Source of the DNA: Planctomycetaceae bacterium
GTDB taxonomy: Bacteria; Planctomycetota; Planctomycetia; Planctomycetales; Planctomycetaceae
Length of the DNA: 64,000 nucleotides
Direction of reading: 5' to 3'
Assembly (NCBI GenBank): GCA_024742875.1
Contig: JANSXP010000002.1
Span: forward strand, 124,001 to 188,000
This document shows positions 10,089-35,662 of the stretch, piece by piece. Under the pieces are notes generated by a model. The model did not search any database. It saw only the letters and a program-made list of their open reading frames with translations, and was not told the origin of the DNA. The first letter of the stretch is position 1, and the number at the start of each line of letters is the position of its first letter. The translations under genes were made by a program, and so were the position numbers.

Positions 10089-12038
10089 GTGAGCACCATC
10101 AATCCGACCACCAATACGTCACTGCCGATCGAAGATCAGGATCTAGATCACGGCGTGTGGGATGTTCTGTACGATATGCCAGCCTGGGGAATCAGCCTGC
10201 TGGTTCACATTGGGATCATTGTCGCCCTGATGAGCATCACCTGGGTCATTGAGACTCAGGTTCGTCCGGAAATCACGTCCACCATCGAACCGGAAGAAGT
10301 CCGGCAGGAACAGTTTGTCATCGACACCGAGGTGACCGAAGAAATCGGCAGCCTCAGTGATATGAACATCGTGGGGCCTTCAATGGCCACAGCTCAGGCC
10401 ACCGGCTTCGACAACCACATCGAGCAGGAAGACCGTATCTCCGAAGACATCATTGATCCTCGGGTGCAGTTCCGCGAGCAGATGCCGACGCCCAACGAGG
10501 CAGACATTCTCGAATCCATCGACCTGACCGGCACGACGGAACACGCCGGCGGAACCGCAGGTGCCATCGACCGCATCACTCAGGAAATCGCCGCCTCACT
10601 GCGACAGCGGAAAACACTCGTTGTGTGGCTGATGGATGAATCCGGGTCCATGGAAGAACGCCGCGCAGAAGTGGCCGATCGATTCAAAGGCATTTACGAC
10701 CAGTTGGGCGCTCTGGACGTGGGAGCAGATGAAGCTCTGCGTTCCGCCGTCATCAGTTATGGCAAAGATGTCCACATCCTGCAGGGCGAACCCACCGCCA
10801 GCGTGGAAGACCTCAACAAAGCGGTTGCCTCCATCAAGAACGACCCGTCCGGTCTGGAGAACGTGTTCTCTGCCGTCGACACGGCCGTGAAAAAGTTCCG
10901 CACCGACAAGCGTCGCATGAAGGCCAACATGATGATCGTCATCGTGACGGACGAACGTGGCGATGACTACGCCGCTTTGGAAACGGTTGTTCGCAACTGT
11001 TCGCGGGAAGGTGTCAAGGTATACTGCGTTGGCAACACGTCCGTGTTTGGACGCGAGAAGGGGCTGGTCCATGTGAAGTGGAAGTCGCCCGACGGTGAAG
11101 AATTTGAAGACGATCTGGAAGCCGACATGGGTCCGGAAACCTTCATGGCGGAAGGCATTCAGCTGCCGTTCTGGAATCGCCGTGCCAGTGGCCTCAGTCG
11201 TATGTCGTCCGGCTATGGTCCTTACACCCTCTCTCGACTGTGTGCGGAAACCGGCGGCGTGTTCTTTGTCGCTGCGGACAACAACCGCAACCGATGGGAT
11301 GACACCATCATGCGACAGTACTCGCCCGACTATCGTCCCGCCAAGGATTATATGCGTCAGCTGTCGACCAACGGAGCCAAAGCGGCCCTGGTCAATGCGG
11401 CCCGTCAGACGATGCTGGATGGCAGTTCCGTGCCTTTGCCACAGACCACATTTGCCGCCCAGAATGACAACATTCTGCGACAGCAGATTACTGAGGCTCA
11501 GAAGCCACTGGCGACCCTCGACTATTACCTGCAGCAATTGCACGGCGCACTGGAAGCCGGCGAACGTGACCGCAACAAGCTGGACTCCGATCGCTGGCGT
11601 GCCAGCTACGACCTGGCCATGGGGCGCGTGCTGGCCATGCGTGTGCGAGCGTTCGGCTACAACGCCATGCTGGCGGAAATGAAATCCACACCGAAGACCT
11701 TTGAGAAAGAAGGCAGCAACCAGTGGCGCCTGCAGCCCGCTGGCGAAATCAACGCCGGTGCCACCGTGCGTAAGCTGCACAAAAAGGCGCTCGAATATCT
11801 CAAGCGTGTGATCGACGAACACCCCGGCACACCATGGGCACATCTGGCGTCTGTGGAACTGGGTGACCCGCTGGGCTGGGAGTGGAAAGAACACCGCATC
11901 CAGGTGGCGGCCAACAACATGGGCAATGGCAATAACAACAACCCAAACTCCCCGCAGTTCGCCCCGGAAGAGGAACGTCGCCGTCAGGAGCAGCGTCGAC
12001 GCGAACAGAAGAAAGCACAGTTCAAACCCAAGATCTGA
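10089..12038 (+). CDS. Membrane-anchored vWA-domain protein with TonB-like transmembrane helix
   Basis: 649 residues from the GTG at 10089, chosen because GCGGGGA at 10074-10080 sits 8 bases upstream; the open frame begins at 9993. A single transmembrane helix lies at about 34-54 and contains S36-L-L-V-H40, the SxxxH pattern of TonB. An acidic periplasmic linker (55-175) follows. A von Willebrand factor A domain (about 178-370) has the MIDAS motif D183-E-S185-G-S187. The C-terminal 200 residues are helical and end in an Asn-rich and Arg/Gln/Lys-rich tail. vWA domains bind metal and protein ligands; the partner is unknown. It shares its N-terminal plan with the protein at 31234. Confidence 0.8.
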   Translation: MSTINPTTNTSLPIEDQDLDHGVWDVLYDMPAWGISLLVHIGIIVALMSITWVIETQVRPEITSTIEPEEVRQEQFVIDTEVTEEIGSLSDMNIVGPSMATAQATGFDNHIEQEDRISEDIIDPRVQFREQMPTPNEADILESIDLTGTTEHAGGTAGAIDRITQEIAASLRQRKTLVVWLMDESGSMEERRAEVADRFKGIYDQLGALDVGADEALRSAVISYGKDVHILQGEPTASVEDLNKAVASIKNDPSGLENVFSAVDTAVKKFRTDKRRMKANMMIVIVTDERGDDYAALETVVRNCSREGVKVYCVGNTSVFGREKGLVHVKWKSPDGEEFEDDLEADMGPETFMAEGIQLPFWNRRASGLSRMSSGYGPYTLSRLCAETGGVFFVAADNNRNRWDDTIMRQYSPDYRPAKDYMRQLSTNGAKAALVNAARQTMLDGSSVPLPQTTFAAQNDNILRQQITEAQKPLATLDYYLQQLHGALEAGERDRNKLDSDRWRASYDLAMGRVLAMRVRAFGYNAMLAEMKSTPKTFEKEGSNQWRLQPAGEINAGATVRKLHKKALEYLKRVIDEHPGTPWAHLASVELGDPLGWEWKEHRIQVAANNMGNGNNNNPNSPQFAPEEERRRQEQRRREQKKAQFKPKI

Positions 12039-31233: not shown

Positions 31234-32865
31234 ATGTCGCAAGCGGATATTCAATCAGACCTGCCAGCAGCGCCAGCGGATTCGGTTCGCAAGGCAGCCG
31301 GTCGCGGGTCGCAGCGACGTCCTCGTCGCCGGGGCCGCGGCAAACCGCCCGCCTGGACCATCTGGCTGGCCACGCAGTTTGTGAATGCTCGCACGCTGTG
31401 CACTCAGACATTTCCCACATGGGTGTCCGAACACCGTGAACAGGCGGCGATCGCCGGTGTCAGTCTGGCCGTGCACTTTGTCATCGCTGTGCTCATGGCA
31501 TTGTGGGTGCTGCCGTCAGACTACACGCCCGACTTTTTTGATCTGATCGTGACGCGCGAAGCAGAAGAGTCCCAGGTGGTGAAAGTGGAACCCATCGCCG
31601 AGCTGCTGCAGCCGGACAAGATTGAAGAGCTGAACGTCAACTCCAATCTGAAGAAACTGCTGTCTGATCTGGACGACGGTGACACTTCGATGGAGATGAA
31701 TGACGTTCTGGATCGTGACCTGTCGTTTGACCTGGAACCCACCGATGCGGAAATGGAGTCCGTTTTTCGCAAAGGCGAATTCGGAGGACGCTCCAAAGCG
31801 GGCAAGCAGGCGGCGCTCAAAAAATACGGGGGAACGGCGGCCAGCGAGAAAGCCGTCTCCATGGGGCTGCGATGGCTGCAGAGCATTCAGCAGGAGGATG
31901 GCTCCTGGCATTTTCGCCAGGTCGGAGCAGGCGCACAGCCCGGCGCCTTCCAGCGGACGGAAGTCGGCGCGACGTCACTGGCGCTGCTGTGCTTTCTGGG
32001 CGCCGGTCATACGCATTTTGATGAGGGCCCCTACAAGGAAACGGTGGCCAAAGGACTGGCCTATATCGGCACCCAGGCGGAGATTTCTCAGGGGACGGCC
32101 GACCTGCGGGGCAGCTTTGAGGGCAACGCCGGCATGTACGTTCACGGGCTGGCCACGATCTGCATTAGTGAAGCGCACGCCCTGGACCCACGGAACAAAG
32201 ATCTGCAGAAGCTGACCGGTATGGCGGTCGGCTTCATCGAAAAAGCGCAGAACCCGTTCAGTGGTGGCTGGCGATACACGCCACGATCCGATGACGCCGA
32301 CACTTCGGTGGCGGGGTGGCAGATTATGGCACTGCACAGTGCCAAAGCGGGCCGCGTTCGCGTTTCCAGCAAGACCATGAGGGAAGCCAGAGAGTTTCTG
32401 CGAGAAGCTCAGACAGACCGCAGTGGCGCGTTCTACTGCTACAACCCCGCCCGCAAGAGCCGTTCAAAAACCATGACGGCTGTCGGCCTGCTGTGCCGCA
32501 TGTATCTGGGCTGGAAGAAAGACCACGAGGGTCTCCAGCAGGGCGTTGCCTATCTGGCCAAACAGGGGCCCGATCGCAACAACATGTACTATAACTACTA
32601 CGCCACACAGGTCCTGCGACACTGGGGCGGCAAGGAGTGGGACAGCTGGAATAAGAAACAACGGTCCATGCTGGTCAGCACGCAGATCACCGAAGGCCCG
32701 GCGGCCGGCAGCTGGCCGATCACTGACAACCATGGCGACGCCGGCGGTCAGATTTATCAGACCGCCCTGAGCATCCTCACACTGGAAGTCTACTACCGCC
32801 ATCTGCCGATTTATCGCAAGCTGGACGAAGCCGAAGGCGCTCAGGCCGAACGGGCCGTCCCCTAG
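31234..32865 (+). CDS. Membrane protein with TonB-like helix and prenyltransferase/squalene-oxidase-like repeats
   Basis: 543 residues from the ATG at 31234 (the frame opens at 31036). A basic cytoplasmic segment (RRPRRRGRGK) precedes a transmembrane helix at about 73-93 containing S77-L-A-V-H81. An acidic linker follows, then an alpha/alpha-toroid with repeats such as MGLRWLQSIQQEDGSWHF. The family is widespread in planctomycetes. The metal-binding residues of true prenyltransferases and the acid motif of squalene cyclases are not evident, so this is more likely a periplasmic binding or structural toroid than an enzyme. The segment just before the toroid (GGTAASEKAV) resembles GGTAG in the vWA protein at 10089. 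Confidence 0.75.
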   Translation: MSQADIQSDLPAAPADSVRKAAGRGSQRRPRRRGRGKPPAWTIWLATQFVNARTLCTQTFPTWVSEHREQAAIAGVSLAVHFVIAVLMALWVLPSDYTPDFFDLIVTREAEESQVVKVEPIAELLQPDKIEELNVNSNLKKLLSDLDDGDTSMEMNDVLDRDLSFDLEPTDAEMESVFRKGEFGGRSKAGKQAALKKYGGTAASEKAVSMGLRWLQSIQQEDGSWHFRQVGAGAQPGAFQRTEVGATSLALLCFLGAGHTHFDEGPYKETVAKGLAYIGTQAEISQGTADLRGSFEGNAGMYVHGLATICISEAHALDPRNKDLQKLTGMAVGFIEKAQNPFSGGWRYTPRSDDADTSVAGWQIMALHSAKAGRVRVSSKTMREAREFLREAQTDRSGAFYCYNPARKSRSKTMTAVGLLCRMYLGWKKDHEGLQQGVAYLAKQGPDRNNMYYNYYATQVLRHWGGKEWDSWNKKQRSMLVSTQITEGPAAGSWPITDNHGDAGGQIYQTALSILTLEVYYRHLPIYRKLDEAEGAQAERAVP

Positions 32866-32934: not shown

Positions 32935-33855
32935 TCATGAGTGGAGCAGCCCCAGTATTCCCAACCCGTAAAAGGTGTACTCCGCATCTGTCTGCTGATC
33001 CCAGCTGGCGCCGCGAAATCCGCCCTCGGGCGCTTCGATCTGACTTTCCAGCCAGTGCAGCACCTGCGGTGGTTTAATGATATCGCGGCGGCCGAGGTCC
33101 TGACCGGTCAGCAGCCCCGTGAATGTGGACAGACCATCGGCAAAAGGAATGCGCGTATTGGCCTGAAAGCCGCCTTCGGTGCTGACGACGTCCGTCAAAA
33201 AGCCCTGCACATCGTCTTCGATATCCGGGTCCATGCCGCCCAGACTGTGGAGCAGGGCCACGGCCGCGGCTGTCGGATTCGTGCCGCTGCGACGCATGGG
33301 GGCAATCTCGACAAAGCCCCCGTCGTCACGCTGACGATCGTAGAGAAACTGAATCAGTCGATTGGGGCGGGGGACCTTATGACCCAAAAGTTCGTAGGTC
33401 AGCGCCACCATAAATGAGTGGTACGTGCTGCCGGCGGAGCCTTTCACACTCTTGGCGTAACCGCCATCCGCCACCCGTGTGGATTCCAGCGTGGCAGACA
33501 CCTGTGCGACGAAATCCGCCGGGGCATCCGCCAGCAAATCGTCGCCTCCGGCGGCCTGCACGACCAGAGCGCTGTACAGCCAGCTGAGCAGATCGATGAC
33601 GTTCAGTTCCAGGGGGGAATGCTGCTGCAGGAATTCGGCAATCTTCTCCGGGTGAGCGCCCTCCAGCCCTCCAGTCACCGCCAGCCCCCGCACGGCAAAT
33701 CCCGTGTAATAAAGATCGGAATCGCCTTCCCGCCCGCGAAATCCGCCGTCGGCCATCTGCTGTGTCAGCAGGAAGGCACGATGTCGTGCCAGACGCTCAG
33801 AATCCAGTGTTTTCAGGCCCCGACTCACCCGGTCCGCAAGTTGAAACAGGTACAT
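32935..33855 (-). CDS. Prenyltransferase-like repeat protein (geranylgeranyltransferase beta-like)
   Basis: 306 residues from the ATG at 33855; a longer frame to 34092 would overlap the guaA start. Repeats of an alpha/alpha barrel run throughout: LLTQQMADGGFRGREGDSDL, ADGGYAKSVKGSAGSTYHSF, QRDDGGFVEIAPMRRSGTNP and the final EGGFRGASWDQQTDAEYTFY. The DxxGGF-type repeats with Tyr and His resemble the beta subunit of protein geranylgeranyltransferase. No signal peptide is present, so it is probably cytoplasmic. It is convergent with the related membrane protein at 31234. Confidence 0.75.
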   Translation of the reverse strand: MYLFQLADRVSRGLKTLDSERLARHRAFLLTQQMADGGFRGREGDSDLYYTGFAVRGLAVTGGLEGAHPEKIAEFLQQHSPLELNVIDLLSWLYSALVVQAAGGDDLLADAPADFVAQVSATLESTRVADGGYAKSVKGSAGSTYHSFMVALTYELLGHKVPRPNRLIQFLYDRQRDDGGFVEIAPMRRSGTNPTAAAVALLHSLGGMDPDIEDDVQGFLTDVVSTEGGFQANTRIPFADGLSTFTGLLTGQDLGRRDIIKPPQVLHWLESQIEAPEGGFRGASWDQQTDAEYTFYGLGILGLLHS

Positions 33856-34066
33856 CGAACTGAAAATTCCCGTCAGATCCAGGGGAAAAAAGAGGGCCGC
33901 TGTCAGTAGATGGTAAACGGCCGATGAAGAATGGATTCCGACTCTGGTGGGCAGAGGATTATTGAGAAACCGGCCGTGTTTGCTAAACTCCGACGTTTCC
34001 CCTTTCGGAAACCTCTCCAACAGGCGCCATCCTATCGCATGGCCCCTGCATAAGCGAACGACACAG

Positions 34067-35662
34067 ATGACTGGATCCCCTTCGACCGGCAATTCGGCCG
34101 CCGTCTCCGATACCCCATTTGGTCAAAACGAACTCGTTCTGGTCCTCGACTTCGGAGGCCAGACGGCTCAGCTGATCGCCCGCCGTGTGCGCGATCAGAA
34201 CGTCTTCTGCCAGCTGGTTCGGCACGACCTTTCGGCCGCACGTATTAAAGAGCTGAACCCGCGGGGACTGATTCTGTCCGGAGGTCCAGCCAGCGTGTAC
34301 GGCGAAGGCGCGCCGCAGGTGGACCCGGCCATATTTGATTTGGGCATCCCCGTGCTGGGGATTTGCTATGGCCTGCACCTGATGTGCCACGTGATGGGCG
34401 GAGAAATTCTGCCGGCCGATTCGCGAGAGTTTGGTCGGGCCCCCTGTTCCTCGGTGGGCAACAATGATCTGTTTGCGGAGATCCCGGAAACCTTCACGGC
34501 GTGGATGAGTCACGGTGATCAGATCCGCTCGATGGATGATCGCTTTGAAGCCATTGCTTCAACGGAGACCTGTCCCAATGCGGCCGTTCGCCATCGCGAC
34601 CTGCCGATTTACGGCATTCAGTTTCACCCCGAAGTCACGCACACAGAATTTGGCGGACAGATACTGGGGAACTTTGTACGAGGCATTTGTGGCTGCGAGG
34701 GCACATGGCGCATCAGTTCTCTGATCGAACAGCAAAAGCAGCACATTCGCGAAGTCGTGGGCACAGACCGCGTCATTTGTGGGCTGTCTGGCGGGGTCGA
34801 CTCGTCTGTTGTCGCCGCACTGATCTCCGAGGCCATTGGTGATCAGCTGTCCTGCATTTTTGTGGACAACGGACTGCTGCGTAAAGGAGAACGCGAACAG
34901 GTCGAACAGCACTTCACCGACCACTTCAAAACCGACCTGCACGTGGTGGACGCCCGCGAGCGTTTTCTCACGGAGCTGGACGGAGTGGACGACCCGCAGA
35001 AAAAACGCAAGATCATCGGCCGCGTGTTTATTGAGTGTTTTCGAGATGAAGCGGCCTCCATCCCCAACGCGAAATACCTCGCCCAGGGCACACTTTATCC
35101 GGATGTGATTGAAAGCGGCGCCAGCCCGGACGGACCGGCAGCCACCATCAAGTCACATCACAACGTGGGCGGCCTGCCGGAAGAACTGGGCTTTGAACTG
35201 ATTGAACCGCTGCGGGATCTGTTTAAGGACGAAGTGCGTCGCATGGGACTGGAACTCGGACTGCCGGAAGAAATGGTCTGGCGGCACCCATTCCCAGGAC
35301 CTGGCCTGTCTGTCCGCTGCCTGGGGGCTGTCACGGAAGAACGCCTGAGCATCATTCGCGAAGCCGACGCCATCCTCATCGAAGAACTGCACAACGCGGG
35401 CATCTATCGGGACATTCAGCAGGCCTTTATCGTACTGCTGCCCGTGCAGTCGGTTGGCGTGATGGGCGATGCCCGCACATACGAGAATGTGGCCGCTATC
35501 CGCGCCATTCAGTCCGAAGATTTCATGACGGCCGACTGGTATCCCTTCCCGCATGACCTGCTGGCTCGCATTTCCACGCGGATCATCAACTCGGTGCGGG
35601 GCATCAACCGTCTGGTTTACGACATCAGCTCCAAGCCGCCTTCCACGATTGAATGGGAATAG
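34067..35662 (+). CDS. guaA: GMP synthase (glutamine-hydrolysing)
   Basis: 531 residues from the ATG at 34067. The N-terminal class I glutaminase has the nucleophile C100 ([11 protein letters not shown]) and the His/Glu pair in [13 protein letters not shown]. The PP-loop ATP pyrophosphatase motif SGGVDSS lies near 241-247. The C-terminal dimerisation domain ends with the diagnostic PSTIEWE. It aminates XMP to GMP. Normal length. The gene is divergent from the prenyltransferase-like gene and followed by a 235-base gap. Confidence 0.96.

Follow-up and report, generated by a model that had tools for sequence, protein, structure and literature searches.

A TonB-like anchor joined to a terpene-cyclase-fold toroid in a planctomycete protein, a probable relative of envelope force transducers

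The anchored toroid protein studied here is encoded in a window of 64,000 nucleotides of planctomycete DNA (the whole stretch that was analysed) and is quite probably a force transducer of the TonB/TolA kind, or directly derived from such a transducer, its unusual effector being a toroid of the class II terpene cyclase fold. The protein consists of an N-terminal transmembrane helix, a linker and the toroid. The SxxxH motif of the helix is conserved among relatives, the anchor belongs to a family shared with vWA proteins, and paralogs are linked to exbB/exbD and to a TPR gene. The N-terminus was assigned to the cytoplasm on the basis of the positive-inside rule. The features of the protein are as follows:

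31234..32865, + strand: anchored toroid protein, 543 aa (ORF with ATG at 31234; orthologs in relatives)
31234..31434, + strand: basic cytoplasmic N-terminus, residues 1-67 (11 K/R vs. 4 D/E; topology via the positive-inside rule)
31435..31509, + strand: TonB-like transmembrane helix, residues 68-92 (AlphaFold2 helix, pLDDT about 90)
31462..31476, + strand: SxxxH motif, S77-LAV-H81 (SLAVH), conserved in relatives
31510..31794, + strand: acidic periplasmic linker, residues 93-187 (low confidence, pLDDT 41-68 in blocks of ten)
31795..32802, + strand: alpha/alpha toroid, residues 188-523 (AlphaFold2, pLDDT about 90)

An earlier, sequence-only reading of this DNA had described the ORF, the helix with S77-LAV-H81, an acidic linker and the SLLVH motif of a vWA protein in the same window, and all of these were recovered; the linker (95 residues, 93-187) indeed carries 25 D/E vs. 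9 K/R. The GGTA junction that it took to be common to the two proteins did not stand. GGTA is present in both window proteins, but in only 1/30 vWA relatives and 13/99 toroid relatives, and was thus rejected as a chance likeness; only the GG at the toroid opening is conserved. The convergent neighbour of the gene (32935-34092, minus strand) encodes a second toroid, which resembles protein prenyltransferase beta subunits (PF00432, E 4e-15) and is absent from the recurrent neighbours of the window-gene orthologs.

The S...H pattern was found in the transmembrane helix of 63 of the 70 named relatives. Among the remaining seven, the N-terminus is cut by a contig end in L100, L126, L133 and L136 (L100 starts inside the motif region), L148 has a different N-terminus with transmembrane segments and no SxxxH, and the last two (L149, L150) are short and secreted. 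The N-terminal part of the L148 toroid appeared DnaJ-like by eye. When the 29 close relatives (L052-L080) were considered, 24 carried [STA]xxxH; His is replaced by Leu in the same-genus orthologs L052, L058 and L059, L063 has NxxxH instead of SxxxH, and an anchor was looked for in L077 and not found. All neighbouring toroid genes, which were found by blastp clustering and not by motif, carry SxxxH (23/23). A second SxxxH toroid gene stands in tandem beside the ortholog at 22 loci (e.g., L083, L084, L090 and L122), and large vWA genes likewise occur as tandem pairs in several genomes. As background, S...H was present in 5/176 predicted transmembrane segments and in 4/64 single-TM ORFs of the protein's own genome. 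In an excerpt of PMC12905483, the SHLS motif is defined as S-x3-H-x6-L-x3-S in the N-terminal transmembrane helix. The window protein has S and H exactly, with M88 at the third and V92 at the fourth position; among motif-bearing relatives the third position is L/M in 81/87 and the fourth is most often V (41/87). A crude strand pattern for the ExbD-binding D-box was found in 38/87 orphan toroids, 0/19 exb-linked toroids and 8/26 vWA proteins, and the AlphaFold2 model of the window protein has no strand after the helix at the place of the D-box.

The same anchor is carried by a vWA protein of the window:

10089..12038, + strand: large vWA protein sharing this anchor (GTG start assumed; VWA PF00092 at E 1e-13; anchor match)
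10194..10208, + strand: SLLVH motif of this vWA protein, read in the sequence

SxxxH is present in 26/30 vWA loci and SxxxN in 4/30, the window vWA protein being counted in. That the helix of the toroid protein parallels that of the vWA protein, as proposed earlier, was confirmed by HHalign: 63 anchors of toroid relatives matched 30 vWA anchors with a probability of 98.1 and a score of 66.9 over 47 columns, while 40 permutations of the helix columns reached at most a score of 23.6 and a probability of 43.6, and a control with the transmembrane helix of ExbD scored 10.5. The likeness of the two anchors is thus far above these controls. Since the toroid anchor windows were selected by the S...H pattern, S and H are invariant in alignments A1 and A2 as a result of that selection, and the motif counts relied on come from loci chosen independently of the motif (named relatives, long paralogs, neighbouring toroids and ExbD loci). 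The anchors of exb-linked toroids gave a weaker anchor match (probability 78.5) than the vWA proteins. Pfam searches on the anchor returned no family common to the members.

Paralogs of the window protein were found to adjoin motor genes. In its own genome, the order at C117 is ExbB-ExbD-toroid, the toroid carrying AxxxH, while at C21 the ExbD and toroid genes overlap by 4 bases and the toroid carries SxxxH. A gene for a transglutaminase-like protein (L015:807-2294; PF01841, E 5e-14) lies upstream of the ExbD-toroid pair at C21. Twenty long toroid paralogs were picked from relatives by frame length alone; [SA]xxxH is present in 19 (17 S, 2 A; none in L254), and exbD lies directly upstream in 17 loci, L242 being cut by the contig and L247 and L254 having none. 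A homolog of the C117 TPR gene was detected in 9/20 of these loci (phmmer, E at most 6.2e-32), exactly those in which ExbB adjoins the toroid. In the opposite search direction, 29 ExbD loci were newly fetched as the best-scoring among 59 class genomes, not as a random draw, and in 25 of them ExbD is followed directly by an [SA]xxxH gene, often in the order TPR-ExbB-ExbD-toroid. The 19 downstream genes that were fetched further are all toroids (E at most 2.6e-81) and the other six (L238, L239, L243, L248, L249 and L253) were already within the L235-L254 set; no [SA]xxxH gene lies directly downstream of ExbD in L277, L278, L279 and L283. The TonB likeness ascribed to the anchor by the sequence-only reading is therefore backed by the adjacency of paralogs to exbB/exbD in both search directions. 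Anchored small vWA proteins were also found near ExbB or ExbB-ExbD-ExbD at 3/20 loci (L215, L220 and L232). Additionally, a single gene at C50 of the own genome (L042:7612-9180) combines ExbD (PF02472, E 4e-18) with a protein kinase of the Ser/Thr type (PF00069, E 2e-50), and it adjoins ExbB and a second ExbD.

In TonB-ExbBD and TolA-TolQR, the SHLS helix docks at the motor periphery, according to the excerpt of PMC12905483. By analogy, the N-terminal helix of the window protein would dock on the proton-driven ExbB/ExbD motor through Ser77 and His81, and the disordered acidic linker would extend into the periplasm. The alpha/alpha toroid, taking the place of TonB's small C-terminal domain, would bind a putative envelope partner or ligand, and the turning motor would move or strain the linker and the toroid, so that rotation or pulling may be transmitted to the cargo of the toroid.

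The modelled C-terminal module has the alpha/alpha toroid fold of class II terpene cyclases. Comparison of the model with known structures gave Z 26.5 to squalene-hopene cyclase 2sqc (rmsd 3.2, 290 aligned), 26.0 to the monodomain class II terpene cyclases 8paj/8pak, about 24 to drimenyl diphosphate synthase, and about 22-23 to sugar epimerases and other toroids; among the matches listed, the VIA-align list is occupied by toroids. In Pfam, the protein matches SQHop_cyclase_C alone and below the threshold (E 6.5e-4), and neither PF00432 (Prenyltrans, protein prenyltransferase beta subunit) nor the TonB domain was matched at E 0.1, the C-terminal module being the toroid. DxDD is the motif of class II cyclases. 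It is absent from the window toroid and present in 4/90 toroids. The earlier suggestion that the toroid has lost its catalytic residues thus holds for DxDD only, since E313 is kept in all of the 82 anchored toroids (fraction 1.00) and D356 in 0.98 of them, each also in 7/8 secreted toroids; Y302, W346, Y403 and Y452 are near-invariant too, in anchored and secreted toroids. A profile of residues 299-405, meant to align the GGWRY...D(T)SV stretch (D356) with the cyclase DxDD, gave weak matches to drimenyl diphosphate synthase and squalene-hopene cyclase, with alignments passing through the repeat motifs. Given that E313 and D356 are retained though DxDD is missing, the pocket of the window toroid may, judging from residue conservation, still be working.

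A tree built from 90 toroids unites all of the 82 anchored forms in one group (support 100/99), apart from the secreted ones, and places the exb-linked toroids mainly in two groups inside the anchored clade. Six short toroid paralogs of the own genome (L016-L021), which are without the transmembrane linker and were taken as secreted, form a separate group. The nearest branches to the window protein are L052 and L059, followed by L058, and none of them has the His. Moreover, exbB/exbD were found near the window gene or its orthologs in 0/70 loci within the flanks examined, and none were found on the window's contig. E. coli tonB and exbBD are also unlinked, and by the same analogy the window copy would use a motor encoded elsewhere. 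Because the gene is unlinked and the His is lost in the nearest orthologs, motor coupling may be fading in this lineage, though the window protein itself keeps the motif, and our confidence in motor coupling is thus higher for the family than for the window protein.

These observations also bear on a rival explanation, in which the orphan copy, an enzyme or a binding protein tethered to the membrane, took over its anchor from an ancestor coupled to the motor but has ceased to use the motor itself, and acts through its toroid on an envelope lipid or glycan. The lack of exbB/exbD at all 70 orthologous loci and the loss of His in three sister orthologs agree with it, as do the near-invariant residues of the putative pocket in anchored and secreted toroids alike and the fold neighbours (terpene cyclases, sugar epimerases, glycosidases). 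A passive tether, however, would need neither S nor H, yet both persist in 63/70 relatives and 23/23 neighbouring toroids, and we regard this explanation as unlikely.

Much less probable still is a true class II terpene cyclase of the squalene-hopene type, tethered to the membrane. The Z scores to 2sqc and 8paj/8pak speak for it, together with a profile match to 1gsz (E 7.5e-11) via repeated QW motifs, but the sequence matches are limited to such repeat motifs and DxDD is missing here and from nearly all of the toroids. Furthermore, the known substrates of class II cyclases are of cytoplasmic origin, whereas the toroid was assigned to the periplasmic side. As for SxxxH being a chance feature of hydrophobic anchors, the pattern does arise in the single-TM background (4/64 ORFs), but its presence in 63/70, 23/23 and 19/20 of the relatives and the permuted-core controls refute this at the family level, leaving it a negligible prospect for the window protein. 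The reading as a TonB/TolA-like transducer, or as a protein derived directly from such a transducer, is thus the one we prefer.

With TonB and TolA the window family shares the single N-terminal S-x3-H helix (S16 and H20 in E. coli TonB, S18 and H22 in TolA) and a disordered periplasmic linker. Their partner genes ExbB/ExbD (TolQ/TolR) adjoin toroid paralogs too, though not the window gene, and the window protein differs in having a toroid as the C-terminal module and a linker that is acidic rather than proline-rich. Class II terpene cyclases, including the monodomain enzymes, have the toroid fold and QW-like motifs in common with the window protein, which is however without DxDD and has a membrane anchor, its family being linked to motor genes. 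Protein prenyltransferase beta subunits share the alpha/alpha toroid, but their Pfam family is unmatched by the window protein. A further parallel comes from the PVC group, where, in an excerpt of PMC12204202, vWA proteins with the SHLS motif adjoin TPR and TolQ/TolR-like genes and force transduction is proposed (Williams-Jones et al., 2025). The idea and the operon of TPR and motor genes are the same, with a vWA fold there and a toroid here; the window vWA protein carries the same anchor profile as the window toroid relatives, while the toroid protein itself has no vWA domain. The words 'prenyl', 'squalene', 'toroid' and 'cyclase' are all absent from the text of PMC12204202 that was searched, and no report of a toroid-bearing TonB-like transducer was found by title and abstract in the open-licence literature. 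As far as this literature shows, vWA transducers are known since 2025 and the toroid version is new. Anchored toroids next to motor genes suggest an undescribed family of envelope machines. The side-docked-helix partners of ExbB/TolQ-type motors described so far are, as far as we found, TonB, TolA and the vWA proteins, and a toroid partner beside the best ExbD gene in most sampled planctomycete genomes would widen the roles of these motors. The genes also form a concrete set on which to study what powers the unusual planctomycete envelope. The set may explain the role of many planctomycete 'squalene cyclase-like' proteins.

Finally, the modules carried by the anchor were surveyed with profile A2 (70 rows), searched at E 1 in related genomes. 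The profile matched 38/39 of these planctomycete genomes, and not just the two starting proteins, with matches on toroids, large vWA proteins, small vWA proteins and other C-terminal modules. The earlier proposal of a single anchor family with exchangeable periplasmic modules is thereby supported. Because the anchor is common to vWA and other modules, one motor type could serve a set of interchangeable periplasmic tools, to which the window protein would belong without being linked to the motor genes. On balance it seems somewhat likely that Planctomycetia commonly have a proton-driven envelope machine of TPR, ExbB, ExbD and a TonB-like toroid, in which a ring resembling terpene cyclases stands in for TonB's grip. 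Among 20 matched frames taken for lengths unlike the typical toroid or large vWA protein, inspection by eye revealed 11 small vWA and four LDLHV-type modules, two other modules (L230 and L231), one short frame (L218), a shortened toroid (L222) and an Hsp70 fusion (L224). Of the small vWA proteins, three were scanned and all matched Pfam VWA, two with scores short of the curated cut-off; five further scanned proteins, LDLHV-type and other modules included, had no match at E 0.01. The 'LDLHV-E-PGG' module presumably resembles YfaP/DUF2135, but L221 and L223 matched no Pfam family at E 0.01. In L063, the anchor (with NxxxH) and toroid stand behind a long N-terminal part, while L222 (1640-2206, minus strand) retains the anchor and only the last part of the toroid, the gene being shortened or decaying. 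In L224 (1-2941, minus strand), Hsp70 (PF00012, E 1e-111), a transmembrane anchor and a toroid with a sub-threshold SQHop match form a single frame, in which a cytoplasmic chaperone-like domain is linked to a periplasmic module.
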